A stretch of DNA of 64,000 nt from positions 1-64,000 of the forward strand of contig JBFMDH010000025.1 of assembly GCA_040754075.1 (NCBI GenBank), read 5' to 3'. The notes under the pieces are model-generated. The model was given only the letters and a program-made list of their open reading frames with translations, was not told where the DNA came from and made no database searches. The position numbers were made by a program, and so were the translations under genes. Positions 170 through 15,402 of the stretch are shown piece by piece (position 1 is the first letter of the stretch; each line of letters opens with the position of its first letter). Origin of the DNA: Acidobacteriota bacterium (lineage in GTDB: Bacteria; Acidobacteriota; Blastocatellia; UBA7656).

Positions 170-301
170 AATTCATCTCATCCAATCAAACTGTTGCAAT
201 CAAACAGCCTAAGCGATTTCAGAGGTTCCACAAGCGAATGGCACAAACGTTGCCATATGGTATGTCGCGCGAAACAAAAAAAATTAAAGGAGATGTGGAA
301 A

Positions 302-403
302 ATGATTAACGAAATGATCAATAACGATGGTGAATTGTTAGTGGAGTTGGAAATCGTCGAAATGGAAGAGGTGGTTGCACCTGGAATCTTGATTGTCAAC
401 TAA
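302..403 (+). CDS. 33-aa acidic small peptide, candidate RiPP precursor
   Basis: Function unknown. The start is chosen from AAAGGAG at 286-292, nine bases before ATG 302. An in-frame ATG at 293 abuts the ribosome site and the longer frame from 122 has no such site. The peptide begins MINEMINNDGELL, is rich in Glu and Val, and ends VVAPGILIVN. It has no Cys, no signal peptide and no membrane segment. A leader-like acidic half followed by a short hydrophobic tail is a layout seen in ribosomal-peptide precursors. The next genes, after a hairpin, are an acetyltransferase and a PqqD-like/M50/HlyD protein, which would suit modification and processing or export of a small peptide. It could also be a regulatory leader peptide. 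The coding call rests on the ribosome site and the context only. Confidence 0.5.
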   Translation: MINEMINNDGELLVELEIVEMEEVVAPGILIVN

Positions 404-424
404 GCCGACAAGAATCTCAAAATG

Positions 425-507
425 CGCGGCGATTATGAGCCTACGTCAACGACACCCTACCCCCGCTCGTGACGATACTTGCTCTTAATCGCCGCGTTTC
501 TCTTTTT
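425..507 (+). terminator. Long-loop hairpin with T-run, possible attenuator
   Basis: Bases 425-440 and 481-496 pair over 16 positions with one mismatch (outer part CGCGGCGATTA) around a 40-nt loop. The sequence TTTCTCTTTTT follows at 497-507. It lies between the small peptide gene and the acetyltransferase, whose ribosome site starts at 511. A partial terminator here would let the peptide be made in excess over the enzymes, as is common after RiPP precursor genes (inference). Confidence 0.6.
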
Positions 508-524
508 ATGAAAGGCAAAATCAA

Positions 525-1136
525 ATGTTAAGAAACCTCCCCAAACTTAATCTAAATTTTTCGGATATGGTATCCGGCGATAATGCGATTTTTATCGTCC
601 CGGAAATTGAAACCGAACGATTACGGTTACGAAGATTTGCCTCGAATGATTATGATGCCCTTTATCGAATCTTCTCAAACCCGGAAGTCATCAAATTTTT
701 TGGCGAAGGAGACCCGCCTTCAAAAGAAGAAACAGAAGCCCTCCTCAACCGCTATATTGATGCCTACTGGCAAGAACATCATCTCGGTAAATGGGCAGTG
801 ATTGATAAACCGTCAAAAACTCTTATCGGTTTTTGCGGGTTCACCATGATTCGTAAAATACCGGAAATCGCCTATATGTTTGCTCAGGAATACTGGGGTC
901 GGGGATTAGCCACCGAAGCCGCTGCCGCCTGTCTCGGATATGGATTCGAGGTTGTCGGTATCGAAAGCGCCATCGCCTATACCAGACCTGAAAATCAGGC
1001 GTCGAAACGTGTCCTTGAAAAAATCGGGATGATTTATGAGAATATCGAAGCCCACTATGGCTATGTCTTCGACAAGTATGGCATCAACCGGCAGGATTAT
1101 CGAAAATTCAACCATCAATTAACCTCAAGCAGCTAA
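525..1136 (+). CDS. GNAT-family N-acetyltransferase (RimJ-like)
   Basis: Predicted to transfer an acetyl group from acetyl-CoA to an amine, as in the RimJ/RimL-type Acetyltransf_3 family. The opening ETERLRLRRF is the typical first strand of that family. The acetyl-CoA loop is YWGRGLATEA at about residues 125-134, and the C-terminal part has the usual N-x-A-S-x-x-V-L-E-K-I-G motif (about residues 155-166). AAAGG at 511-515 supports ATG 525, which gives 203 aa. An internal Met at residue 15 is a possible later start. The gene sits between the small peptide gene and the membrane protease-adaptor, with 45 bp to the latter. The substrate is unknown; the N-terminus or a Lys of a peptide product is possible, but an unrelated housekeeping role cannot be excluded. 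Confidence 0.85.
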   Translation: MLRNLPKLNLNFSDMVSGDNAIFIVPEIETERLRLRRFASNDYDALYRIFSNPEVIKFFGEGDPPSKEETEALLNRYIDAYWQEHHLGKWAVIDKPSKTLIGFCGFTMIRKIPEIAYMFAQEYWGRGLATEAAAACLGYGFEVVGIESAIAYTRPENQASKRVLEKIGMIYENIEAHYGYVFDKYGINRQDYRKFNHQLTSSS

Positions 1137-1181
1137 CCCGACCCCGATTATTAATGGGTTCGGCATAATTTGGGATGTCTC

Positions 1182-3728
1182 ATGTTTAAAGAGCCGCAAA
1201 ATGAAATTCAGTTTTGCCGGTATCCACCTAAGGTTTCCGATGCCGTTGATGTGACCGAACAAACCGAAGGTGAGACGACACGTTACATCGTTAGAAATAA
1301 ACTCAATGCCAAATATTTCTTATTAAGGCTCCCCGAATATCTGATTTTCAAACAGTTGGATGGAACCCAAACGCTATCGGATATTGCACAAGGCGGACGC
1401 CGTCAAACAGCGCCCAAAGCAACAGTTCCAACCTTAATCAAGTTTTTAACCAGACTCGACTCGCTTGGACTCCTCGATGGCAATAACCCGCCTGGTATTT
1501 CACCGCAAAGCGATAAAACGGAACTTTACAGGCGTATCAAATTATTCAACCCCAGCCGGTTTTTAAACTGGTTAGAGAGACGTTTTGGCTGGCTTTTATC
1601 CAAACCGTTTATCATCCTGTCATTTCTTGTCATGGGGTTCGTGCTTCTTGGATTGATCGTCAGGGCTGATGAATTTTCCAACTATACGCTATACACCTAT
1701 AAAGAATATGGGTTTGCTTCAATCATCCTGTTCACCCTGTCGATTACCGTGCTGCATGAATTCGCGCACGGCTGGGCTTGCAAACACTTTGGCGGCGATG
1801 TTGAAGAGATGGGCGTATTGATGATTTATTACGTCCTGCCGGCTTTCTATTGTAATGTTTCGGATATTTATCGTTTGAAAACCAAAAGTCAACGCCTCTG
1901 GGTTATCGCTGCGGGTATTTACTGGCAACTGTGTGTGAGTGCCCTGGCAGCGATGCTATGGTTATTAGCAACCCCCTTTTCGCTAATCGCGGATTTCAGT
2001 TTTCTGGTACTTCTGGGTGGGACTTTAAATATATTGGTGAACTGCAATCCGTTGATAAAACTGGATGGCTATTACGCGCTGTCACAAGCCTTGAATATTT
2101 CAAACTTACAAACGGCATCCAGTCATTACATCCACTCATTCATCGAAAAATTTCTTGGAAATTCAACCGCAAAAAAATTTCAACCTACTCGCCCGCTACT
2201 TTTTTTCTCCTATTGGATTCTCTCGATCCTCTATTCAATCCTGCTGATTTATTTCATTTTGAATTTAGCGGGAGCCTGGTTATTGGATAACCTGAGATTT
2301 TTCGGCGCAGGGATAACCCTGGGTCTGGCTGGCTTATTAACCAAAAGGTGGTGGATTCCCATCGCTCGGAATTTGCAGGTTTGGTTTTTAGCTTTCAAAT
2401 CCGCTTCGATGAAAGGAGCAAATCCGATGTCTACTGAGCAACCGTTTCATCAATCGTCATCCGTTAAACCGGGAAGCAAAACACCCGGCGCTAGAATCAG
2501 CATTAAACGCAGCACTGTTCTCAAAGGCGCTTTTGCGTTACTGATTTTTGCCATTCTATTTACTCCCTGGGAAGCCTCAACCGGTAGCGATTGCACGCTG
2601 CAATTACCGCCCGGTCGTGAAGGCATCGCCAGAGCCAACACTGATGCGGTACTGGCTGAAATATTCGTTCAGCAGGGAGACACGATTGCCGAAGGTTCAA
2701 AAATTGCCCGACTCGCAAATCCTGAAATCGAAGATAAACTGACACAAATCAACTCGGAAATTCAACGCTTGAATGCCAACAATGCGCGGATTGAAGATGA
2801 ATTGAAGGTCAAAAGCGAACTCCTGCTGTCAGCTAATTTGAAAGAAACCGAACGCAAACGCCTTCTCGAAGAATACCAATCGGAATCCCAACAAATCAGG
2901 GCTAATGCAACAGAGGCAACATCGCTTCCGCCATCGCTTGCCATCTTGCAATCGGAAATCGAATTGAAACAAACCGAACTTGAACACAATCGCCGAGAAG
3001 TCGAACGCTATAAAAAATTATTTGAACAAGGACTGGTCGGTTCGCAAATTTATGACCGGGCAATTGCCGCCATGCGCATCAGCGAAAAAGAATTGCAATC
3101 GGCGCGCGCCCGTTTGGAAGCTGCCAAAGTTGACCATCGCCGCTTGACTGCCAGCACGGAAACCGGTTCTCTGGTTGCAGAAACCGAAGCTCGCGCTGCC
3201 CGTTCAAATTTTGAAGCCTTGATAGCCGAATTGCATTCCAATCGTCAACAACTCGAAGCCTTGAAAATCCGTCAGGAAATTTTACAACGCGAATATGATG
3301 GTATGAATGTCACAGCGCCGCGCGCAGGCGTCGTGCTGGGTGAAGATTTACAAAAAACCACTGGTCGTCATTACAACAAAGGTGATGAGATTTGTCGCAT
3401 CGGTGAACTGGAAAAATTTCTTTTGAAGATAGAAGTCAGCGAACGTGAAATCAGTAATGTCCGGTTGGAAAGTTCGGTTCGCTTTAAATTAAAAACCGTG
3501 CCCGGTCGAACCTTTACCGGACGGGTTTCAAAAATCAATGCCGAACCGATTGCCAATCAAAACGGGCAGCGGTTCTACCCGGTCGAAGTGATGGTTGAAA
3601 ATTCCGATGGCATGCTGAGACCCGGAATGACCGGCTTTGCCCGTATTTCATTCGGTCGTCAATCGGTAGGATTTATTATTGCCGAAAAACTCTGGCATTC
3701 ATTACGCCCGGAACTTTGGCTATTTTAA
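1182..3728 (+). CDS. PqqD-like / M50 metalloprotease / HlyD adaptor fusion
   Basis: A three-part membrane protein of 848 aa. Residues about 15-95 resemble PqqD-like peptide-recognition domains. About 140-390 form a multi-pass site-2-protease (M50) domain with the zinc motif HEFAH (192-196) and the third ligand in NPLIKLDGYY (about 289-298). After one more membrane helix (about 443-462), the rest is a periplasmic HlyD/RND-type adaptor with a long coiled coil (about 530-690) and a beta-barrel domain. The family is known from peptide-export and RiPP loci (putative peptide zinc metalloproteases such as YydH). It could cleave a peptide in the membrane and pass it outward; no ABC transporter is adjacent. 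ATG 1182 is preferred over the TTG at 1170, with a weak GGGA site at 1172-1175. Confidence 0.85.
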   Translation: MFKEPQNEIQFCRYPPKVSDAVDVTEQTEGETTRYIVRNKLNAKYFLLRLPEYLIFKQLDGTQTLSDIAQGGRRQTAPKATVPTLIKFLTRLDSLGLLDGNNPPGISPQSDKTELYRRIKLFNPSRFLNWLERRFGWLLSKPFIILSFLVMGFVLLGLIVRADEFSNYTLYTYKEYGFASIILFTLSITVLHEFAHGWACKHFGGDVEEMGVLMIYYVLPAFYCNVSDIYRLKTKSQRLWVIAAGIYWQLCVSALAAMLWLLATPFSLIADFSFLVLLGGTLNILVNCNPLIKLDGYYALSQALNISNLQTASSHYIHSFIEKFLGNSTAKKFQPTRPLLFFSYWILSILYSILLIYFILNLAGAWLLDNLRFFGAGITLGLAGLLTKRWWIPIARNLQVWFLAFKSASMKGANPMSTEQPFHQSSSVKPGSKTPGARISIKRSTVLKGAFALLIFAILFTPWEASTGSDCTLQLPPGREGIARANTDAVLAEIFVQQGDTIAEGSKIARLANPEIEDKLTQINSEIQRLNANNARIEDELKVKSELLLSANLKETERKRLLEEYQSESQQIRANATEATSLPPSLAILQSEIELKQTELEHNRREVERYKKLFEQGLVGSQIYDRAIAAMRISEKELQSARARLEAAKVDHRRLTASTETGSLVAETEARAARSNFEALIAELHSNRQQLEALKIRQEILQREYDGMNVTAPRAGVVLGEDLQKTTGRHYNKGDEICRIGELEKFLLKIEVSEREISNVRLESSVRFKLKTVPGRTFTGRVSKINAEPIANQNGQRFYPVEVMVENSDGMLRPGMTGFARISFGRQSVGFIIAEKLWHSLRPELWLF

Positions 3729-4466: not shown

Positions 4467-5627
<1,161 letters not shown>

Positions 5628-5632
5628 AACGG

Positions 5633-5670
5633 ATAAGGAGCGGGAATTCATCTTCCGCTCCTTATTTTTT
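5633..5670. terminator. Bidirectional terminator between thrC and the mutase
   Basis: AAGGAGCGG at 5635-5643 pairs with CCGCTCCTT at 5655-5663. T5665-5670 follows on the plus strand, and A-rich bases flank the other side. It overlaps the stop codon of the minus-strand mutase gene. Confidence 0.8.
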
Positions 5671-7027
5671 ACTCGTGAACCAGTTCGTTCAATTTGGCTT
5701 CAACGGCATTTCGGATAGCAGTCAAATGGTTTTCGCTTTCGGCTTCAAAACGCATAACCAATACCGGTTGAGTATTAGAAGCGCGAACCAGCCCCCAACC
5801 GTGTTCAAACAAAATCCGCGCGCCATCAATGTCGATGACTTCGTGGGTTTGTTTAAAGGCTTCGGTCAACAGTTTAACGATGTCAAATTTTTTCTCATCG
5901 GGACAATCAAAACGGATTTCCGGAGTGTTGATGGTTTTGGGTAAATCTTCCAGAAGCGCGGACAACGGTTGCTCGGTATTCGATAAAATTTCCAGTAACC
6001 GCGCCCCTGCATAAACCGCATCGTCATAACCGAAGTAGCGATGGGCGAAAAAGATATGCCCGCTCATTTCACCGGCAAGTACCGCTTGTTTTTCCTTCAT
6101 TGCGGCTTTGATTAACGAATGCCCGACTTTCCACATCACCGCATTGCCGCCGTGTTTGGCAATGTCATCAAACAGGGTTTTTGAACACTTCACTTCGGCA
6201 ATAAAAGTAGCGCCGGGAATTTCTTTTAAAATGGCGCGTGAAAAAATGACCATCAATTGATCGCCCCAAATGATTTTGCCTTTTTCATCAACCACACCGA
6301 TGCGGTCGCCGTCGCCATCAAAGGCAATCACCAAATCCGCCGAATGTTCGTGGACGGCTTTAATGGCGTGTTGCATATTTTCGATTACTGTCGGGTCGGG
6401 GTGGTGGTTGGGAAAGCGGCTGTCCGGCTCGCAAAATAATTCGACAACTTCGCATCCCATTTGTCTGTAAAGCGGCGCGCCGATAATTCCGCCCATGCCA
6501 TTTCCGGCATCCACGACAACTTTCAATTTACGATTGCCGAGTTTGATATTTGATTTTAGAAATTTGAAATAACACGGCACAATGTCGCGTTCGGTCGAAC
6601 TTCCCTGTCCGGTGGCGAACTCTTTGGACAAGGCATAGGATTTAATTTCCTTGATTTGCTCGCCATAAATTGAACTCTTATTGAAACAGATTTTAAAACC
6701 ATTATTATCGGCAGGGTTATGGCTGCCGGTTATCATGACGCCCGCATCAACATTAAGGCTATCGGTAAACAGCGAGTAATAGAGCAAAGGGGTCGGCACC
6801 ATGCCAATATCGACAACATCACACCCTGATTCATTCAACCCATGAATCATGATGTCGCGAAATATCGGTGAACTCTCGCGAGCGTCGCGACCCAAGCTCA
6901 CGCGGGTGATGTTGCGCTTTCGATAAAAGGTGCCGATGGCGCGCGCTACGCGATACACCGAATCTTCGGTTAAATCTTTTCCCACAACTCCGCGAATATC
7001 ATATTCACGAAAAATATTCTCATTCAT
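5669..7027 (-). CDS. Phosphomannomutase/phosphoglucomutase
   Basis: Interconverts hexose 6-phosphate and 1-phosphate, supplying sugar nucleotides for envelope polysaccharide (the ManB/AlgC type of the alpha-D-phosphohexomutase family). The 452-aa protein has all signature loops: the phosphoserine in TGSHNP (Ser102), the Mg site DGDGDR (about 240), the sugar-binding GEMSGH (about 325) and a C-terminal phosphate-binding RASNTQP. ATG 7027 has GGAG seven bases upstream. It is preceded by 252 bp of non-coding DNA that separates it from the YmdB-like gene. Mannose or glucose preference cannot be set from sequence. Confidence 0.93.
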   Translation of the reverse strand: MNENIFREYDIRGVVGKDLTEDSVYRVARAIGTFYRKRNITRVSLGRDARESSPIFRDIMIHGLNESGCDVVDIGMVPTPLLYYSLFTDSLNVDAGVMITGSHNPADNNGFKICFNKSSIYGEQIKEIKSYALSKEFATGQGSSTERDIVPCYFKFLKSNIKLGNRKLKVVVDAGNGMGGIIGAPLYRQMGCEVVELFCEPDSRFPNHHPDPTVIENMQHAIKAVHEHSADLVIAFDGDGDRIGVVDEKGKIIWGDQLMVIFSRAILKEIPGATFIAEVKCSKTLFDDIAKHGGNAVMWKVGHSLIKAAMKEKQAVLAGEMSGHIFFAHRYFGYDDAVYAGARLLEILSNTEQPLSALLEDLPKTINTPEIRFDCPDEKKFDIVKLLTEAFKQTHEVIDIDGARILFEHGWGLVRASNTQPVLVMRFEAESENHLTAIRNAVEAKLNELVHE

Positions 7028-7279
7028 TGTTCAACTCCACTGCTATTTTTGCGAGGTTATTACCCGAAGGGAGGGTATCAGTTGTCAGCCGATTGTTGCC
7101 ATTTTCACTCAAAAAATACCATCGGGCAATAATAACTTTCATACTTCAAGGAACCGTTATTGCCAAATCTGAAGCGGTTGGTTTTATCACCACCCCTTTA
7201 CAGATTTTAGAATTACGCGAAAGCTGCAACTCTTTACAACCCTCCAAAGAAAATCACCCACCGGAATTACACATATCAT

Positions 7280-8053
7280 TTAGCCTTGAATCCGTTCAAT
7301 GCTAATGGCTTTGCCGGATTGTTCTTCGATTTCGACGACGACGCCACTGACCCGCGCATCACCGGTTGCAGGTTCAAATCGAATAGGCATTCCACGAAGA
7401 AATCGTTGGATGACAACCTGCGACTGCACCCCGATAACCGAATCGTGCGGACCGGTCATGCCCAAATCGGTAATGTAGGCGGTGCCCTTCGGGAAAATCT
7501 GTTCATCGGCAGTTTGCACATGGGTATGCGTTCCGACAACGACAGACACCCGACCATCAACATAACGACCGAAAGCAATTTTTTCCGAGGTTGCTTCGGC
7601 ATGAAAATCAACGATAATGATTCTGGCGCGTGAAGCCACCTCGCCAATTAATTTATCCGCCATTTTAAAAGGACAATCGGTCGGCGGCATAAAAATGCGC
7701 CCTTGAAGATTAATGACGGCAATGGGCGTGCCGGATTCGGTTGCCCCAAACCACACGCCGCGTCCGGGTGTTTCCGAGGCGTAATTTGCCGGACGTAATA
7801 ATCTTGGCTGATTTTCGATGTAAGCGATGCCCTCTTTTTTATCATAGATGTGATTGCCGGAGGTCATAACATCGACGCCCGCTGTCAGCATCTCTTCACC
7901 GATTTTTGTATTAATCCCTGCGCCATCCGCAGCATTTTCGACGTTGGCAATGACAAATTCGGCTTCATACTGTTTTTTTAATTGTCTGATTGATTGACAC
8001 AAAACCGCGCGACCGGGGTTGCCGACCACATCGCCTAAAATTACGACCTTCAT
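7280..8053 (-). CDS. ymdB: YmdB-like metallophosphoesterase (TIGR00282 family)
   Basis: Predicted di-metal 2',3'-cyclic nucleotide phosphodiesterase, the family of Bacillus YmdB, which affects biofilm and motility decisions. Metal-ligand motifs run in order: GDVVGNPGR at the N-terminus, NVENAADG, SGNHIYD, FHAEATSEK and GTHTHVQTAD. The length of 257 aa is normal. I use the ATG at 8053; the TTG at 8056 is only one codon longer. It lies between the mutase gene and a secreted conserved protein, all on the minus strand. The physiological substrate in this organism is unknown. Confidence 0.9.
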   Translation of the reverse strand: MKVVILGDVVGNPGRAVLCQSIRQLKKQYEAEFVIANVENAADGAGINTKIGEEMLTAGVDVMTSGNHIYDKKEGIAYIENQPRLLRPANYASETPGRGVWFGATESGTPIAVINLQGRIFMPPTDCPFKMADKLIGEVASRARIIIVDFHAEATSEKIAFGRYVDGRVSVVVGTHTHVQTADEQIFPKGTAYITDLGMTGPHDSVIGVQSQVVIQRFLRGMPIRFEPATGDARVSGVVVEIEEQSGKAISIERIQG

Positions 8054-8074
8054 CAAAACCCCAACTTTCAGGGA

Positions 8075-8099
8075 AAATCAAAGGCGGTCATAGACCGCC
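8075..8099 (-). terminator. Intrinsic terminator after the 8165-9277 gene
   Basis: On the minus strand GGCGGTC (8099-8093) and GACCGCC (8089-8083) form a 7-bp stem with a 3-nt loop, followed by TTTGATTTT. It would end the transcript of the secreted protein before ymdB. Confidence 0.6.
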
Positions 8100-8164
8100 C
8101 CGATATGAAAAAGAAAATTAAAAAATGTAAACCTTACGCAATCAACCTGTGCGCCCGCAATCAA

Positions 8165-9277
8165 TCACCGCAAGGGGATGGAATATTTGGTCACCACGTT
8201 TTCATAGGTTTCACATTCACCGGCTTTGCACATCTTCAATAAATCTTCGATGCGTTGCAACAATTGCGTGCTGAAATGATTGGGTTCATATTGCGGATGC
8301 AGCGGCGCGTAATAATTGAAATAACTGCGAATAATCAGGCTGTTTTTATCAATCGGCAAAGCCGCGACATTTTCAATAAACTTGTCGTATTGTCCTTGGC
8401 GATGAACATAAAATTCGACATTTGAAACATAAAAAGCCGAGACTTTTTCTTTCAATTCATTCACATATTTGGCTACCGCTTTCATTGCCTGGGTTCCCGC
8501 TAAATCGCCGGTGCAAGGGATAATCAAATCCTGTTCCTGCAGGCGTTTTAAAAACTGCCAGTCATCTTCCCGACAGAGGTAATTGTTCTGTTGTCCGGTT
8601 AAATCTTTTTCCAGAAGCAAGTCTCTGTAAGTCGGATAGATTGAGCGCGGCGGGCGATTGTGGCTCGAATAGCGAATATCCAGTCCTGCGCTATAAAAAG
8701 CTTGTTGAATGGTTTCGATGGTTCTCAGGTCGGTTTCCGAAAGTTTAAGGTCATATTTTTGCACTTCACGGCGAACCGTTTCTAGGGTTTTATCGAATAA
8801 TTTTTGATCCGAAGGCGTGGAATCAATGTACTCGACCAACCCTTTTATATCTTTCTCTTCCCAACCTTTGGTTTTAGGAAACGGTTTTCCAAATAACAGG
8901 CTGAGGTATTCGATGCGGCTACGCGCCTGAATGAACAGGGTTTTGAAAAACAGATGATGCAACAAATTATCTCGACGAATATCAAGCATAATGGCGCGGG
9001 TCGGGCGAATTTTGGCAATATAGGTAAAATTCTGATCGGGCCCGACACCGATATAGACACCGCCTTTGGTTTTAAATTCGTTCAGTTTGCCAAACACATG
9101 GAGGTAGGACGTTTCATTGGAAATCAAATTATCGGAATCGAAAAACCCTCCCGATTCCGAAAGCCGCGCACTCAAGGCGGCAAACTCTTTATGGTCTTTC
9201 GCCTGAGTTGCCGGAACCACGCTCGTTGAAAAAAATGCGATTAAACTGATTGAAAGCATCAACGCTTTGAATTTCAT
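8165..9277 (-). CDS. Secreted conserved protein, LIC_10091-like family
   Basis: A 370-aa protein of unknown function with a clear signal peptide (MKFKALMLSISLIAFFST, likely cleaved near residue 27). The stretch GGVYIGVGPDQNFTYIAKI, then a MLDIRRDNLLHH segment, resembles a family I remember from Leptospira (LIC_10091), where a Rossmann-like fold has been suggested. That assignment is from memory and moderately sure. GVGPDQN at a strand-loop position looks like a ligand-binding turn. GGAGAGATAATTG precedes ATG 9277; the TTG at 9280 is rejected. It follows the Q-rich DUF4175-like gene by 24 bp, so it may be the last member of the envelope operon. Confidence 0.6.
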   Translation of the reverse strand: MKFKALMLSISLIAFFSTSVVPATQAKDHKEFAALSARLSESGGFFDSDNLISNETSYLHVFGKLNEFKTKGGVYIGVGPDQNFTYIAKIRPTRAIMLDIRRDNLLHHLFFKTLFIQARSRIEYLSLLFGKPFPKTKGWEEKDIKGLVEYIDSTPSDQKLFDKTLETVRREVQKYDLKLSETDLRTIETIQQAFYSAGLDIRYSSHNRPPRSIYPTYRDLLLEKDLTGQQNNYLCREDDWQFLKRLQEQDLIIPCTGDLAGTQAMKAVAKYVNELKEKVSAFYVSNVEFYVHRQGQYDKFIENVAALPIDKNSLIIRSYFNYYAPLHPQYEPNHFSTQLLQRIEDLLKMCKAGECETYENVVTKYSIPLR

Positions 9278-9301: not shown

Positions 9302-12300
9302 TTATTTCTTTTCATTCGGATTACGCGATGACAATCGACGATAGTAATCTTCGATTTGTTTGCGATACCGATCAGGCGCTTCCCCATCGTTTATTGCGCC
9401 ATTGCGATTGCCCTGTTTTGCCGCAAGCCGGCGCGCCAACTCGAATTCAATCTGGCGCAGCGGGTCAATAATCTCGCTCTTGAGCAGCGCCATTTGCGCT
9501 GGGTCGTTAAACGGATTGGGGTTGATGCGATGAAGCGCATCAATGGCGCGATCCACTTCACGTCCCAAATCGGGATTATTTTTCAACATTTGTTTCAATT
9601 CACGCAAATCCGATTCTCTTTGACGGAGTTCACTGTCGAGTTGACGGTCACCTGTGCGCGGCGGTCCGCCACCGCCCATAAATTCCGATTGCATTTCAGG
9701 ATTGGTCGAATTACTGGGTTGATTATTACGCCCCTGTTGTCCACCCGGTTGTTGTCCGCCTTGCTGCTGTCCGCCTTGTTGACGACCACCCTGAGCTTGT
9801 TGCTGTCCCTGTTGCCGACTGCCTTGTTGACCTGACTGTTGTCCGCCTTGTTGTTGACCACCTTGTTGGCGACCATTCGCTTGCTGACCTTGTTGATTGC
9901 CCTGTTGGCGACCCTGTTGATTGCGTCCTTGTTGATTACCCTGTTGCCCATTTCGAGCTTGTTGCTGCCCTTGCTGATTGCCCCTTTGATTTCCCTGTTG
10001 TCCATTCTGCGCTTGTTGGTTGTCTTGTTGATTTTGACGATCTGGTTGACCGCCCTGTTGGTTTTGTTGACCTCGCTCTCCCGGTTGCCCGTTTTGATTC
10101 TGCTGCCCCTGTTGTCCGTCCATCTTGCGACGCAGGGATTCCAAACTATCGGCAATCTCACGGGCTTTATTCATCGCCTCTTCACCGCTATCACCTTGAC
10201 GGCGATTGGCATTGCCCTCGGCAGCCTGCAAATTTTTCAATACTTCTTCCAGATTTCCCTGAATAACCTTTTCGCGTTCTTTCGCTTGATCCATATAACC
10301 GCGATCAATCAATTCTTTATTCTGTTTGATTTTATCGGGAATGCGATTGCGACGAATGGCATTGGCGGCATCGCGCAATTTATCGGCAGCCTGTTGTTTT
10401 TCGGAACCCATATTGCGCGCCGTTTGGTCAATGTCCTGTTCAAGCCCTGCGACCTGATCGGCTAAGGTTTGTTTGCGCTCGGCGAGTTGGTCTTTCTTCT
10501 CCTGATTGCCGCTTTGCCCATTGCGGCTCAACTCATCGACGCTTCGTTGAATATCATTCTGTTTCTTAATCGCCTCTTCTGCGCGTTGGCGAAGTTGTTG
10601 AACATTTTGTTGACCGCGCGATTGGTTGGCGGAATTCATCATGCGCTGAGCCTGTTGCAATCGCTGTTGGGCGCGTTGCATTGCGGAATTGGCGTCCGAT
10701 TGATTGCCGCTCGATTGTTGCGAATTCTGCGATTGAGCCGATTGCGACTGTGAGCGTTTCAAATCTTCTGCCGCCTGGCGCAATTGTTGCGCGGCTTCCT
10801 GCATTTTCTGGTCACGGCGATCACGCGACAATTTTTCAAGTTGACGCGCCATCTTCTGCAACTCTTCAATCATTTCCTGTTGTTGGCGTTGCGAACCGCC
10901 ACCACCGCCGCCTTGTTGTTGCATCTGCGAACGCTGACGCCCTTCGAGTTCTTTTTGCAACCGTCTCGACAACTCTTCCATTTTACGAGCCAGTTCATCC
11001 TGTTCCTGATTCTGTTGCGACTGTTGCTGTCGTTGAACGGTCTCGTACTGGTTCTTCATCTTGTCGAGTTGCAGTTCAAATAAATCCGCCAGGTCACGAT
11101 CCTGTTGCTGCTGCCCTTGCCCCTGCCCTTGTCCCTGAGCAATTTGCATCTCGCGGAAAACCGCTTCGGCTTTCAACAATTGCTGCAACGCCCGTTGTTC
11201 CGGGGGCAGCGCATCTTTCGTCGATTTCTCGCGCAATTTGTCTTTTGCAATATCCATCTCCGCAGAAGCCTTGGTTAAATATTCAACCAACTGGGCAAAT
11301 TGCTGATTGCTGTTTAACTGAGCGCCCATACGCCGTCGAATGCGCTCGATTAACTGGTCGGCTTCACCTTTGAGTTTTTCCTGACTCAGCGTCACGGTGC
11401 CGAAATTCTCGTCCTTTTCTTCGGGCGTGTAGGTTTTCTCTTCCCGCTGAACTCTGAAAGTAGCGGCAATAATTTCGCGTTGTTTTTTTGCCAGCGCGTT
11501 TGAATCCTGCTCGCCCTGTCCCTGCCCTTGCCCCTGTTGTTGCGACTGGCGAAATTCACGCTCAAACGGTCGCACTTCCATGAAATAAATATCCGAAGTG
11601 GATTCCTGACCGCTGTTGTCTTTGGCTTTGGCGTAATAGGAGACAAAATCGCCGACCTGCAAACCCAATTCTTCGAGGAAAAATGTATAAGACCCGGTTA
11701 AGGTTTTCGGCTCATCGCGTTTCAAATCCTGCAAAGCGACGTGTTTTTCTTCGCCACCATTCACTTGATAAAAGAGTTCGATTGCAGCAACCCCGAAATC
11801 ATCTTCGGCGCGCGCCTGTGTGAAAACTTCCTGAATGTTGGTAACTTTGGCATCGCGTCCGGGTTTATCGAAAAGCACCGTCGGCGGCGCATCTTCAAGC
11901 AGGGTGATGTCATATTCATTTGAACCGTTATACTTTTCGCCTTCTTCGCTGGTGATTTCGATTTTATAGGTTCCCTCTTTTGTCACGGTAAATGACCCGA
12001 CAAACCGAATCTCGTTTTCCGGCGCATTTTCCAAATCCGGCGACATTTCAAATTTGCTGCCGTCATTTAAAACGATGCGGGCTGATTTAACTTTTCCGCT
12101 GAGAATCGCCGTCACATAAACGACCGTGCCTTTTAATGCCGCGACCTCTCCGCCGTTTTCGATTTTCTTGGAAGGAAGCCCGGAAAAAGCCGGGAAATTT
12201 AAAACCAGATCAAGTTGTTTGACATATGGAAGGTCGGCGACTTCGAGCGTGTATTCCGGCGAACGAATATTATTCGATTCGACATAATAGACAATCGAAT

Positions 12301-13063
12301 CCTGAATATTGAAAATCGTGTGTTGAAATTCGTTGAGGTTTTTCGCAGGCTCCATCGCCGTTGCCAGCCAGTTGGCATCACTCATCTTGCGAATGAAAAT
12401 TTGCGCTACACTCGCGTCAAACCCGCGAAGCAAAGCTTTCAACCGTTGATCGGAACCACGCGGAACTTTGGCATTCCCCGGAAGGATTTCGATAAACATC
12501 GCATCGGCGGATGCCGTATCCGTAAGTCCGCCGAACAGCCTGCCGATGCCGCCTGACACCGGTTTGGAAATCCACATCGAACCAATGAGCGCGGCAAGCA
12601 GAATTAAAGCGCCTGCGCCGTATCCGTAAGCCTGACGCGGGTCAACGATGCGATTCAGGTCAGCATTCGCCAGTCTTTCATCGGCATCTTTTCTCAGGCG
12701 GGTTAAGATGGCGGGCGAGGCATTTTTTTCATTTTCAGCAAACTCGACTGCCGTTGTCACGCGGTCATCCAAACGGACTTTTTCTTCGATTAATCGTGCA
12801 ATTTGTATGTCGCCAATGCGTTTGCGAAGCGGCAACATCACCAACCAGATTGCCGAACTCAGAGTCAGTAGAAAAGGAATGATGCGAAGCGCCACCAATA
12901 GATTGGGTTTGTAATAAAACCGATTGGCTAAAACCGCCGCTGAAATGAAGGTAACAGCCGCAATCGCCAGCGTGATTAAAACCCCAAACAACACTTGCCG
13001 GGTTTTAATTCGCGCGCGAACTTTACCGATGACTTCATTGATTTTCGATTGTTGAGGACGCAT
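9302..13063 (-). CDS. Large Q/G-rich membrane protein, DUF4175-like
   Basis: A 1253-aa envelope protein. Three N-terminal membrane helices lie at about 24-48, 55-78 and 148-168. An extracytoplasmic part with Ig-like and beta segments follows (about 190-505). The rest is long helical, Gln-rich coiled coil ending in an extreme Q/G/N/R tract and a short charged C-terminus. DUF4175-like proteins are known neighbours of MoxR and BatA-type genes and are thought to act at the cell surface. ATG 13063 follows GGGGGA with good spacing; the GTG at 13066 is too close. It lies downstream of the BatA/VWA gene with a 305-bp gap, so it may have its own promoter. Molecular function is unknown. Confidence 0.75.
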   Translation of the reverse strand: MRPQQSKINEVIGKVRARIKTRQVLFGVLITLAIAAVTFISAAVLANRFYYKPNLLVALRIIPFLLTLSSAIWLVMLPLRKRIGDIQIARLIEEKVRLDDRVTTAVEFAENEKNASPAILTRLRKDADERLANADLNRIVDPRQAYGYGAGALILLAALIGSMWISKPVSGGIGRLFGGLTDTASADAMFIEILPGNAKVPRGSDQRLKALLRGFDASVAQIFIRKMSDANWLATAMEPAKNLNEFQHTIFNIQDSIVYYVESNNIRSPEYTLEVADLPYVKQLDLVLNFPAFSGLPSKKIENGGEVAALKGTVVYVTAILSGKVKSARIVLNDGSKFEMSPDLENAPENEIRFVGSFTVTKEGTYKIEITSEEGEKYNGSNEYDITLLEDAPPTVLFDKPGRDAKVTNIQEVFTQARAEDDFGVAAIELFYQVNGGEEKHVALQDLKRDEPKTLTGSYTFFLEELGLQVGDFVSYYAKAKDNSGQESTSDIYFMEVRPFEREFRQSQQQGQGQGQGEQDSNALAKKQREIIAATFRVQREEKTYTPEEKDENFGTVTLSQEKLKGEADQLIERIRRRMGAQLNSNQQFAQLVEYLTKASAEMDIAKDKLREKSTKDALPPEQRALQQLLKAEAVFREMQIAQGQGQGQGQQQQDRDLADLFELQLDKMKNQYETVQRQQQSQQNQEQDELARKMEELSRRLQKELEGRQRSQMQQQGGGGGGSQRQQQEMIEELQKMARQLEKLSRDRRDQKMQEAAQQLRQAAEDLKRSQSQSAQSQNSQQSSGNQSDANSAMQRAQQRLQQAQRMMNSANQSRGQQNVQQLRQRAEEAIKKQNDIQRSVDELSRNGQSGNQEKKDQLAERKQTLADQVAGLEQDIDQTARNMGSEKQQAADKLRDAANAIRRNRIPDKIKQNKELIDRGYMDQAKEREKVIQGNLEEVLKNLQAAEGNANRRQGDSGEEAMNKAREIADSLESLRRKMDGQQGQQNQNGQPGERGQQNQQGGQPDRQNQQDNQQAQNGQQGNQRGNQQGQQQARNGQQGNQQGRNQQGRQQGNQQGQQANGRQQGGQQQGGQQSGQQGSRQQGQQQAQGGRQQGGQQQGGQQPGGQQGRNNQPSNSTNPEMQSEFMGGGGPPRTGDRQLDSELRQRESDLRELKQMLKNNPDLGREVDRAIDALHRINPNPFNDPAQMALLKSEIIDPLRQIEFELARRLAAKQGNRNGAINDGEAPDRYRKQIEDYYRRLSSRNPNEKK
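9720..10115 (-). repeat. Low-complexity Q/G/N codon tract
   Basis: About 130 codons dominated by CAA/CAG, GGC/GGT and AAC/AAT, coding for QQG, NQQ and GQQ blocks. The DNA is a degenerate TTGTTG-type repeat on the plus strand. Such tracts can slip during replication, so length may vary between strains. The tract also opens spurious long reading frames on both strands. Confidence 0.85.
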
Positions 13064-13368
13064 CACATAATCCCCCTTGGTAATTTATCGACCGGGTTTC
13101 AAATTATCTGTTCCACTGAAATCAAAATCCTTGTCCAGGCTTCAAAGACAATCACCATCGAAGAAAATACCGATAGTGAATTATTGATCCTTGCTCATCG
13201 CAAATTGTCTTAGGGCTGGTTGCACTGAATCAGGAACGCACAAGTAGTTTTTCAGGATACCATCGTTTTTGCAAGCCCCGCGTTTTGTAAAATGTAAACC
13301 TGTAACTGACACTTCCAAACCCATTCATTCAAAAATAAATTTTTCCGCTCTTGATAAATGTCAGGAAG
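13064..13368. other. 305-bp intergenic region without a gene
   Basis: It lies between the BatA/VWA gene and the DUF4175-like gene. Near 13359-13378 a 6-bp hairpin (TGTCAG/CTGACA) overlaps the BatA/VWA stop codon. No convincing reading frame is present. It probably holds the ribosome site (GGGGGA) and perhaps a promoter of the DUF4175-like gene; no -35/-10 pair stands out. Confidence 0.5.
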
Positions 13369-15402
13369 CTAACTGACAAGTTTCGCGATGCGAATGCGGC
13401 GTGCCAGTATCGCTTCTGCAACAAAAAATAAGAGCGCCAGAATGATTAACGGCAACCACCAACGTTGTTTGGACTCGAGTTCCTCTTGGGTTTGATGGCT
13501 TGAGGCAATCGGTTGAATATTGTCATCAGGGTTTTGCGTAACCCCGGCAATCAATTCATTGGTATTCAACCTGGTAAAATCCGATTCTCTGGCATCGATA
13601 TTAACCGCCGCATTTTCGGCTTTTTCCCGGTAACGCAAACGATAAAAGCCTGTCTCAATGGCATCAATGGCAAGTTCGCCTGAAGCAGTTCTGCGAGCAT
13701 CTTCAACACGACCACCCAACGGGTTTTCAACCGCCGGATAATTGCCTTCCGCATCCGGTGGCGCAGTAAACACCTGACCGACCTTGTAAGCAATCGTGCC
13801 TTCATCGCCGGTCAGATGTTCCAGCATCTGGCGAACCAGCGGTAAAAACATCGGCGTCAGCGGCAAATCATTCCAGGCGGTGTCGAGGGTGGTGGTCATC
13901 AACAAAACCTTTCCGCGACCTGCCAACCCCTCGATTAAAACAGGGCTGCCATCATCCAATGCCGCAAGCACCGCCGCCGTCTCTTTAAGCTCAACGCGAT
14001 GGTAGGAATAAACCCGCGTAGAGGTTAATCGACCGCTTTTTGAAAACGGGCTGAACACCGGATGGTCAGCTTTAATCTGACTCATCAAAGCGTAGCCGCC
14101 GCGAGTTTGCGCGACATCGGAGAGAGTAGCAGGTATGATGCCTTTAAAATTCTGGTTATAATCGCTCGCCTCGGCATGTTTGCCTGCGGCGATAATCAAC
14201 CCGCCACCACGCTCGACAAAATTTTTTATCGCGCCTGAAAGCTGATCACTTAACGTCACGACATCATTGATGATGATGGCGCGGTATTCATTCAATTCAT
14301 CCGGGTTTACGTTGCCCGGCGACTTCAAAGTAAGTTCAAAGCGATTGTTCTCACCGGCAAGTAGCGCCTGTTGCAGGTAGAGGCTTTCGCTGCGACCACG
14401 CGACGGCGTCTCAATCGCCAGAATCCTGGTCTGGTTTTCACGACGAATGATGAAATGGTTTTTGTTATCGAAATTAAAACTGTCATTGGTGATTTCGATG
14501 CTGGCGCGATTTGAACCATCGGGAACATTGAAGCCGGTAAATTCGATGGTTTTGGAAGCCCTGCCATCAAGCGAGATTTCTCTGCGCTCAACCGCCAGAT
14601 CGTTTAATTTGAAATCCACCGTGCCGTCGAAAATTTCATTGCCGAAATTATTTACTATGGCGGTGACCTTGCCGGAATATTTTTGAGTATAGATTACCGG
14701 GTCGGCTTTCACATCAGTAATTGCCAAGTTGGTCACAGCCGTTTCCCCGACATCAATCGGAATCAATTTCACATCCGCAGCAATTTTGGGTTGCGTGGTC
14801 GCGCGGTTCCAACCGGAATTTTGAAAATCGGAAATCAGGTAAATTTTGCGGTCGCCTTTTCCGGTCTCTTTCAAAATCGCATCGCCCGCTTGAATCGCCT
14901 GTAAATAATCGGTTGCAGCAAGCGTCGGTTTTAACTGGTCGAGGATTTGATGGAGTTCGGCTTTATCGTTTTTCAACGGGCGCAGTATTTCATAGCTCTG
15001 GGTAAAACTGACAAGCGCGAGATGTTCGCCATTTGCGGCGTTATCAATAACATTGCGAACCGCTTTTTTGGCGCGTTCAAAATAATCCGCATAGCGCATA
15101 CTCGCGGAAGCATCAATCAATATCACGCTGTTTTGGGTAGCGGTCGCTGCCTGCATCCGGCTGTTGGTAAAATAGGGACGGGCGAACGCCAGCGCCAGCA
15201 GCATAATGGCGAGACACCTTAACGCCAGCAGCAACCAGTTTCTCAAATGGCGACGGCGAACCGTCTTCTGCTCGATTTTTCTAAGAAACATCAGCGACGG
15301 GTAAAAAACTTTCTGGGCGCGTGTACGCCTGACCAGATGCACGAGAATAGGAATACCCGCTGCTAAAACGCCGACCAAAAAAAATGGATTTAAAAATGCC
15401 AT
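13369..15402 (-). CDS. BatA-domain/VWA membrane protein
   Basis: A 677-aa membrane protein with the Bat aerotolerance-type N-terminus: a first helix, the LVHLVRRTRAQKVFYPSLMFL stretch and a second helix ending at about residue 78. A VWA domain follows with an intact metal-ion site DASASM (about 96-101). A middle beta domain and a glutamine-amidotransferase-like region (FVERGGGLIIAAG, about 390-402) come next. A C-terminal helix lies near 650-672. Such proteins work with MoxR ATPases and DUF58 proteins in envelope stress or assembly of surface complexes. The DUF58 and MoxR genes lie just upstream, but a two-gene nucleotidyltransferase cassette interrupts the series. Partner and substrate are unknown. 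Confidence 0.85.
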   Translation of the reverse strand: MAFLNPFFLVGVLAAGIPILVHLVRRTRAQKVFYPSLMFLRKIEQKTVRRRHLRNWLLLALRCLAIMLLALAFARPYFTNSRMQAATATQNSVILIDASASMRYADYFERAKKAVRNVIDNAANGEHLALVSFTQSYEILRPLKNDKAELHQILDQLKPTLAATDYLQAIQAGDAILKETGKGDRKIYLISDFQNSGWNRATTQPKIAADVKLIPIDVGETAVTNLAITDVKADPVIYTQKYSGKVTAIVNNFGNEIFDGTVDFKLNDLAVERREISLDGRASKTIEFTGFNVPDGSNRASIEITNDSFNFDNKNHFIIRRENQTRILAIETPSRGRSESLYLQQALLAGENNRFELTLKSPGNVNPDELNEYRAIIINDVVTLSDQLSGAIKNFVERGGGLIIAAGKHAEASDYNQNFKGIIPATLSDVAQTRGGYALMSQIKADHPVFSPFSKSGRLTSTRVYSYHRVELKETAAVLAALDDGSPVLIEGLAGRGKVLLMTTTLDTAWNDLPLTPMFLPLVRQMLEHLTGDEGTIAYKVGQVFTAPPDAEGNYPAVENPLGGRVEDARRTASGELAIDAIETGFYRLRYREKAENAAVNIDARESDFTRLNTNELIAGVTQNPDDNIQPIASSHQTQEELESKQRWWLPLIILALLFFVAEAILARRIRIAKLVS

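Follow-up and report, generated by a model that had tools for sequence, protein, structure and literature searches.

We analyzed the first 64 kb of contig C25 (the window) of the 7.58-Mb genome of an Acidobacteriota bacterium (GCA_040754075.1), a stretch that begins at the contig end. Close to this end, a gene for a 33-residue peptide, a terminator-like hairpin, a GNAT acetyltransferase gene and a gene for a protein that fuses an RRE (PqqD-like) domain, an M50 protease and an HlyD-like adaptor follow each other on the forward strand. All four elements, and the strong ribosome site AAAGGAG, were present as described in the initial annotation, which had proposed a possible locus for a ribosomally synthesized and posttranslationally modified peptide (RiPP). 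The features of this segment are as follows.

286-292, forward strand: Shine-Dalgarno sequence AAAGGAG, read from the sequence
302-403, forward strand: precursor peptide gene, 33 codons plus stop, encoding MINEMINNDGELLVELEIVEMEEVVAPGILIVN (33 aa); conserved in relatives
302-382, forward strand: predicted leader, residues 1-27, ending in the motif EMEEVVAP (from the alignment and the daptide precedent)
383-400, forward strand: predicted released tail GILIVN
about 424-497, forward strand: terminator-like hairpin, then a T-rich run (folding compared with shuffles)
525-1136, forward strand: GNAT acetyltransferase (Pfam Acetyltransf_3, E = 3.9e-37), between peptide and fusion
1182-3728, forward strand: RRE-M50-HlyD fusion protein, 848 aa (family profiles and structure comparison)
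1212-1514, forward strand: RRE (PqqD-like) domain, residues 11-111 (predicted structure, fold search)
1755-1769, forward strand: M50 zinc motif HEFAH, residues 192-196; H192, E193 and H196 invariant in 8 and in 30 sequences
2046-2075, forward strand: second M50 motif NPLIKLDGYY, residues 289-298; D295 invariant in 8 and in 30 sequences
2508-3725, forward strand: HlyD/EmrA-like periplasmic adaptor, residues 443-848 (sequence families, adaptor fold)

The precursor peptide and the fusion protein

The pN/pS ratio of the leader was 0.19 (11 codons, 6 precursors compared). The window genome (G000) contains a second peptide gene, MINQRTDLEGVMVDDLNIEEMEEVIAPGLTLAE, on contig C32 (pep2), which has no adjoining fusion gene and a predicted tail of GLTLAE. 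The motif EMEEVVAP appears to be the local form of a wider leader motif, [VIL]xELExRIAP, and the APG of the window peptide, initially read as a signature of the peptide end, now looks like the end of the leader, behind which the tail varies. Sequence comparison indicates that the peptide, its leader, the fusion, the promoter and the palindromic sites described below are conserved. The hairpin 3' of the peptide stop codon has a folding energy of -39.8 kcal/mol (z = -5.68 against 200 shuffles) and is followed by TTTCTCTTTTT; a simple terminator scan restricted to loops of 3 to 8 did not return it.

HExxH and NPxxxLDG are the motifs of M50 site-2 proteases. Judged by sequence, the fusion belongs with these proteases and its motifs are intact, the residues listed above being invariant in 8 fusions of the Blastocatellia class and in 30 full-length fusions. 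Pfam searches returned HlyD families above the cutoff and Peptidase_M50 with 26.5 bits, slightly below its cutoff of 27.2 bits, and PqqD gave no match at E <= 0.1. The NCBIfam model daptide_HExxH (NF041824) scored 189 bits over residues 19 to 387, the RRE-M50 part, and 193 to 232 bits in 8 relatives, of which one lacks HlyD; all of these scores lie below the cutoff of 300 bits. Residues 11 to 111 were modeled as an RRE with the beta3-alpha3 order, a feature of these domains according to an excerpt of PMC12710340. The nearest solved structures were leader-bound RRE proteins (5v1u, 5v1v, and 6jx3), followed with rising E values by TglHI, CteB, and SuiB, and just two chains were found at E <= 0.001. 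The C-terminal half of the fusion resembled EmrA and MacA in structure comparisons.

Peptide-fusion pairs in relatives and across phyla

With the fusion as query against 58 genomes, the closest full-length homologues were found in G001, G004, and G002, followed by G049, G056, G031, G015, and G033. Short open reading frames (ORFs) with the same leader precede the fusion in G001, G004, and G002, the last of which has two tandem copies. The C-terminal residue is N in the window peptide and A, A/E, and H in G001, G002, and G004, respectively. The initial annotation stood or fell with a conserved small peptide in relatives; one was found beside the fusion, and the pairing of a RiPP-like precursor with an RRE-M50-HlyD protein is thereby supported. 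The precursors of G056, G031, and G015 each consist of two to seven leader-tail units in a row (e.g., VEVDLSVEEMEAVIAPALSPNHNEA), and a TPR-like gene sits between precursor and fusion in these genomes (Pfam tested for that of G056). Most precursors of G033 and of a second G056 locus end in WCC.

An RRE-M50 match at E <= 1e-20 was obtained in 14 of the 162 genomes of the class. A hidden Markov model (HMM) of the leader, searched against 16 genomes at E <= 1e-3, matched in 8 of the 9 genomes with the RRE-M50-HlyD fusion and in 0 of the 7 without it. Its 14 rows were drawn from those 8 genomes, and only the matches outside the rows count as independent, namely, those on C32 of the window genome (E = 7.1e-9), G031:C5, G033:C42, and G056:C379.

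Two further loci were noted in these genomes. G031 contains an additional multi-unit precursor (L187:6907-7944) upstream of an O-methyltransferase gene, where nearby ORFs resemble, by eye, a C39 ABC transporter and HlyD. In G033 (L189, L051), two further precursors with RRAWCC/RKTWCC ends lie ~6 kb before LanM and HlyD genes, and this locus is a candidate lanthipeptide cluster with the same leader.

A scan of genome contigs returned 272 relatives, and the best 80 of the 272 loci were analyzed. Nearly all stem from metagenome-assembled genomes, related loci are not independent, and at least five (L058 to L062) repeat genomes already covered above. In short ORFs beside the fusion, [VIL]xELExRIAP leads into tails that are either very short or rich in Gly, Asn, Pro, Ser, or His. 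A leader-motif ORF was found at 57 of the 80 loci by a strict test and at 59 with a relaxed motif; the total rises to 62 with L073, L094, and L104, whose motif ORFs have no recognized ribosome site. The record titles of these 62 loci contain 12 phylum-level names, and the groups with both leader and fusion include Acidobacteria, Zixibacteria, Planctomycetes, and Verrucomicrobia. The motif was present in 94 of 1,991 small ORFs preceded by a Shine-Dalgarno sequence at the 80 loci, compared with a mean of 2.1 and a maximum of 6 after residue shuffling (50 rounds), and 92 of the 94 begin within -1.8/+4.5 kb of the fusion match. None of the 160 small ORFs of 28 short HlyD loci, used as a control, carried it. 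Where 1.5 kb before and 3.5 kb after the match were available (49 loci), a leader ORF was present in 37. Some tails recur across phyla (GY[ED]GQPG in 9 loci and PGN[NK]NP in 7, also in the Bacteroidetes record L073), and the peptide gene is located after the fusion in Zixibacteria.

The leader HMM was also run genome-wide on 20 genomes, chosen for 20 of the 80 loci and including the sources of 8 of its 14 rows. At E <= 0.5, it gave 52 rows, 30 of which were taken as loci, and 24 of the 30 mapped to a fusion locus. The other six comprise two that belong to an array in one genome, on a contig other than that of the fusion, three weak matches (E = 0.004 to 0.11), and one ~20 kb from the fusion that adjoins a kinase-like gene. 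All 10 example precursor ORFs tested were without an NCBIfam or Pfam name.

The clustering of neighbors showed the fusion to be the only gene common to the 80 loci, and in the window clade (G000, G001, G002, and G004), peptide and fusion alone are shared in the direct vicinity. The 25 commonest of 129 Pfam families in 76 same-strand neighbors, taken from 91 neighbors listed, contained no maturase except FemAB (2). A subtype with Ser/Gly/Lys/His tails is accompanied by a 345-aa protein without known function (13/80 loci), a FemAB-typed cluster (8/80), whose typing rests on its L090 member, and a 232-aa protein (6/80). In many Zixibacteria loci, the peptide is followed by a kinase-like gene (in L067, one for a kinase with TPR), an arrangement that may reflect plain synteny. 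The right-hand neighbors in the window encode a cyclophilin, a PALP enzyme, and a phosphomannomutase, and DUF7453 was also among the neighbors.

Taken together, the occurrence of peptide-fusion pairs in many bacterial groups suggests a widespread, apparently undescribed system for the production of small peptides. No description of an RRE-M50-HlyD fusion with such peptides was seen in the open-access literature searched, subscription papers being outside its coverage, and searches for LEERIAP and similar strings gave just chance letter strings among the matches listed. LEPR-XLL, considered as a possible related signal, gave two literature matches. A large set of short ORFs is tied to one leader and one putative processing-export protein, which provides a handle for finding and testing the products.

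Several unusual arrangements were seen among the wider loci. L131 and L121 harbor four and three near-identical 31-aa tandem precursors (MAKK[SG]TKKVVKLNVERLEKRIAPTRAAIAMG), respectively, on the strand opposite to the fusion. In an Armatimonadetes record (L269, flipped 5466-8684), precursors with YWR or FWR ends lie by large membrane-like proteins and not on the fusion contig. At L064:5558-9104, an RRE-M50 protein without HlyD, a Cys-rich precursor with the same leader, and an MNIO gene (PF05114, E = 5.3e-90) form a candidate modified-peptide cluster.

The putative control region and the TPR-sigma54 activator

The segment upstream of the peptide gene contains the following features.

36-52, no strand: palindromic site 1, TGTGTAGCAGCTACACA, putative enhancer/upstream activating sequence; confined in this genome to the regions upstream of both peptide genes
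55-71, no strand: palindromic site 2, TGTGTAGCTGCTACACA (pattern search)
134-150, no strand: palindromic site 3, centre of a perfect 55-bp palindrome at 115-169
239-253, forward strand: sigma54-type -24/-12 promoter TGGCAC-N5-TTGC, 10 of 10 consensus positions

Elements were scored against the -24/-12 consensus of sigma54 promoters. A score of 10 was reached by 4 of 3,000 random 350-bp windows and a score of 9 by 65, and the elements at pep2 and at the peptide genes of G001, G004, and G002 scored 9, 10, 9, and 9 of 10, respectively. Palindromes also precede these four genes, in degenerate form in G004. Genome-wide, the palindrome pattern with up to two mismatches matched 7 times in G000, 3 times in G001, twice in G002, and once in G004, always upstream of peptide genes; two of the 7 matches in G000 are a copy on contig C24 of sites also in C25. 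No matches were found in G003, G005, and G007. An RpoN domain was detected in five of five genomes.

The supposition in the initial annotation that the system extends to the left is supported by C24, the end of which overlaps the window start over 130 bp (99.2%). Since C24 ends in the left arm of the 55-bp palindrome, this palindrome probably broke the assembly. C24 encodes, on the peptide's strand, a TPR-sigma54 activator of 1,012 aa, the stop codon of which lies 48 bp left of position 1. The contig end that adjoins the window on its left carries two such activators, 50% identical (L191:3131-6154 and 12110-15148). An activator was found in all seven genomes of the family searched, including those without the palindromic site. 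An apparent adjacency of the activator in G001 was rejected, the contigs having short repeats and no true overlap. The literature on TPR with sigma54 and quorum sensing held nothing pertinent among the matches listed.

Proposed mode of action and rival explanations

Several characterized systems share parts of this locus. In daptide biosynthesis, an RRE-site-2 protease (MpaP/DapP) removes a leader with the motif ELExMEAP and P at -1, as stated in an excerpt of PMC10036551. The system described here has in common with daptides the RRE placed N-terminal to the M50 protease, the short, often multicopy precursors, and a leader of the same geometry that ends in AP, with the variant forms EMEEVVAP and ELEERIAP keeping E-hydrophobic-E and AP. 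The daptide model NF041808 gave 19.7 bits (cutoff, 25) on the precursor of one relative and none on that of the window (P0001). In contrast, the invariant C-terminal Thr of daptides is not present in the window peptide or those of G001, G002, and G004; the oxidative decarboxylase, aminotransferase, and RRE-DUF were not seen among the window neighbors, a statement that does not extend family by family to the wider set; and HlyD is fused here to a protease with NF041824 scores below the cutoff. The system would, by analogy, work like the leader-removal half of daptide biosynthesis, and it was not filed as a daptide because two defining features, the C-terminal Thr and the daptide enzymes, were not seen at the window. 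This suggests that a daptide-type pair of leader and RRE-protease may operate outside daptide chemistry.

The M50 protease EpeP/YydH of epipeptides is thought to release, and perhaps to export, a short peptide (PMC10885120, in part). The window locus shares with epipeptides an M50 protease and a weak NF058609 match, but no radical SAM enzyme was seen at the locus, an RRE and HlyD are fused here, and the precursors are different. Characterized pearlin clusters contain TldD/E-like or M50 proteases (same excerpted source). The pearlin/ammosamide leader model NF033737 scored 16 and 21 bits (cutoff, 30) on precursors of two relatives; however, no peptide aminoacyl-tRNA ligase was recognized, no model search for one having been made. 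Firmicutes have peptide pheromones released by site-2 proteases and RRNPP receptors that contain TPR. A short hydrophobic peptide, an M50 protease, and a nearby TPR regulator recall this arrangement by analogy, although the TPR protein here has the architecture of a sigma54 activator.

A minimal leader-guided system for peptide production and export is, in our view, probably the best explanation of these data. The small precursor gene would be driven by the sigma54 promoter, which has three dedicated palindromic sites and is probably served by the TPR-sigma54 activator of the adjoining region on the left. The hairpin probably curbs read-through, and the peptide would in this way be produced in excess. 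The RRE would then bind the leader through the motif E-x-hydrophobic-E-x-x-[IV]-A-P, and the precursor would be cleaved, most likely behind A-P, by the intramembrane M50 protease. The tail, GILIVN here and GLTLAE for the second gene, would be guided across the periplasm by the HlyD domain. The GNAT would be a passenger or a local extra.

The precursor could alternatively be that of a true RiPP, in which the GNAT or an enzyme encoded at another place would modify the tail or C terminus before the cut, with the fusion as a shared last step. We consider this possible but rather unlikely. The same leader class occurs with the MNIO of L064 and before the LanM of G033, the leaders of some relatives resemble daptide and ammosamide/lymphostin leaders below the cutoffs, and the three protein clusters of the Ser/Gly/Lys/His-tail subtype recur; against this stand the absence of a maturase other than FemAB from the 25 commonest neighbor families and the window clade, where just peptide and fusion are shared nearby. 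A role of the GNAT in acetylating the released peptide or in self-protection is improbable. In the window, it separates peptide and fusion and has the same orientation as both, and PF00583 acyltransferases are among the common hits in daptide clusters (PMC10036551, excerpt), but G001, G002, and G004, the closest three relatives, have no GNAT at this position, and FemAB was the sole GNAT-type cluster among those in at least 3 of the 80 loci. The GNAT, in the initial annotation the only candidate modifier, was hence rejected as a conserved modifier. A local tailoring role may nevertheless exist, given the GNAT genes of G049 and G033, the restriction of the family list to the 25 commonest of 129, and the daptide precedent.

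It is very unlikely that 302-403 serves, in place of a precursor gene, as a regulatory leader ORF whose attenuator would act on the downstream genes. The strong hairpin directly after it would fit, but the amino acids are conserved (see pN/pS above), a second copy exists on another contig without a fusion, G002 has two tandem copies, and the Zixibacteria peptide follows the fusion. Short ORFs are common, yet the idea of a small ORF that lies by chance next to an ordinary efflux adaptor deserves hardly any credence, as it is contradicted by the leader-HMM matches, the motif counts against shuffles, the pN/pS ratio, and the mapping in 20 genomes.

Several observations weigh against the leader-guided production and export system or its control. 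G049 has the fusion and no leader ORF was found on its 13.7-kb contig; likewise, 18 of the 80 loci, some with short flanks, are without one. GNAT genes lie ~4 kb (G049) and ~7 kb (G033) from the fusion, both on the other strand, which slightly lowered our confidence. No partner transporter was recognized among the neighbors examined, for which no aimed search was made. The C24-C25 junction depends on the 130-bp overlap. The activator is more distant in G004 (~4 kb, with several ORFs between) and in G006 (~4.5 kb), lies on a separate contig in G001 and G002, and is present without sites in G003 and G005. A sigma54 element scoring at least 9 preceded 3 of 90 precursors of the 80 loci, two of them of the window clade (L058 and L059), compared with 15 of 3,200 random sequences, and sigma54 control as a general feature of the family was therefore rejected. 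Finally, the reversed palindrome pattern, with up to two mismatches, matched 5, 6, 4, and 4 times in G000, G001, G002, and G004 (0 to 6 over all eight genomes). Exact matches in G000 numbered 5 vs 0 for this control, and it is the location and the exact matches of the palindrome, not the number of matches, that carry the weight.

Both the spread of the system and the elaborateness of its regulation go beyond what the initial annotation could reveal. Tentatively, and with considerable reserve, we propose that it might form an autoinducing signal in this Acidobacteriota family: M50 would release the hydrophobic hexapeptides GILIVN and GLTLAE, HlyD would export them, and after re-entry they would be read by the TPR of the sigma54 activator, which would bind the three sites and turn both peptide genes on. 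More broadly, LExRIAP-leader peptides with RRE-M50-HlyD exporters would, under the same proposal, constitute a multi-phylum class of small secreted peptides that requires no maturase. Peptide signaling is a possible function, and the dedicated sigma54-type control region in the window's family makes this hypothesis directly testable in Acidobacteriota.

G006 has four palindrome matches. Three of them precede two ORFs, one with hexapeptide repeats and one short and leader-like, and the activator is encoded on the same contig. Its hexapeptide-repeat ORFs (L203:327-584 and 4960-5091, minus strand) contain GILLGD and GVLIGD, one behind the palindromes and one by the activator. Such repeats (GVLIGD) were rejected as a specific sign, with matches in 122 of the 162 class genomes, mostly in large ORFs among the rows listed. 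Because hexapeptide repeats are common in the class, the likeness of GILLGD to GILIVN may be a coincidence.

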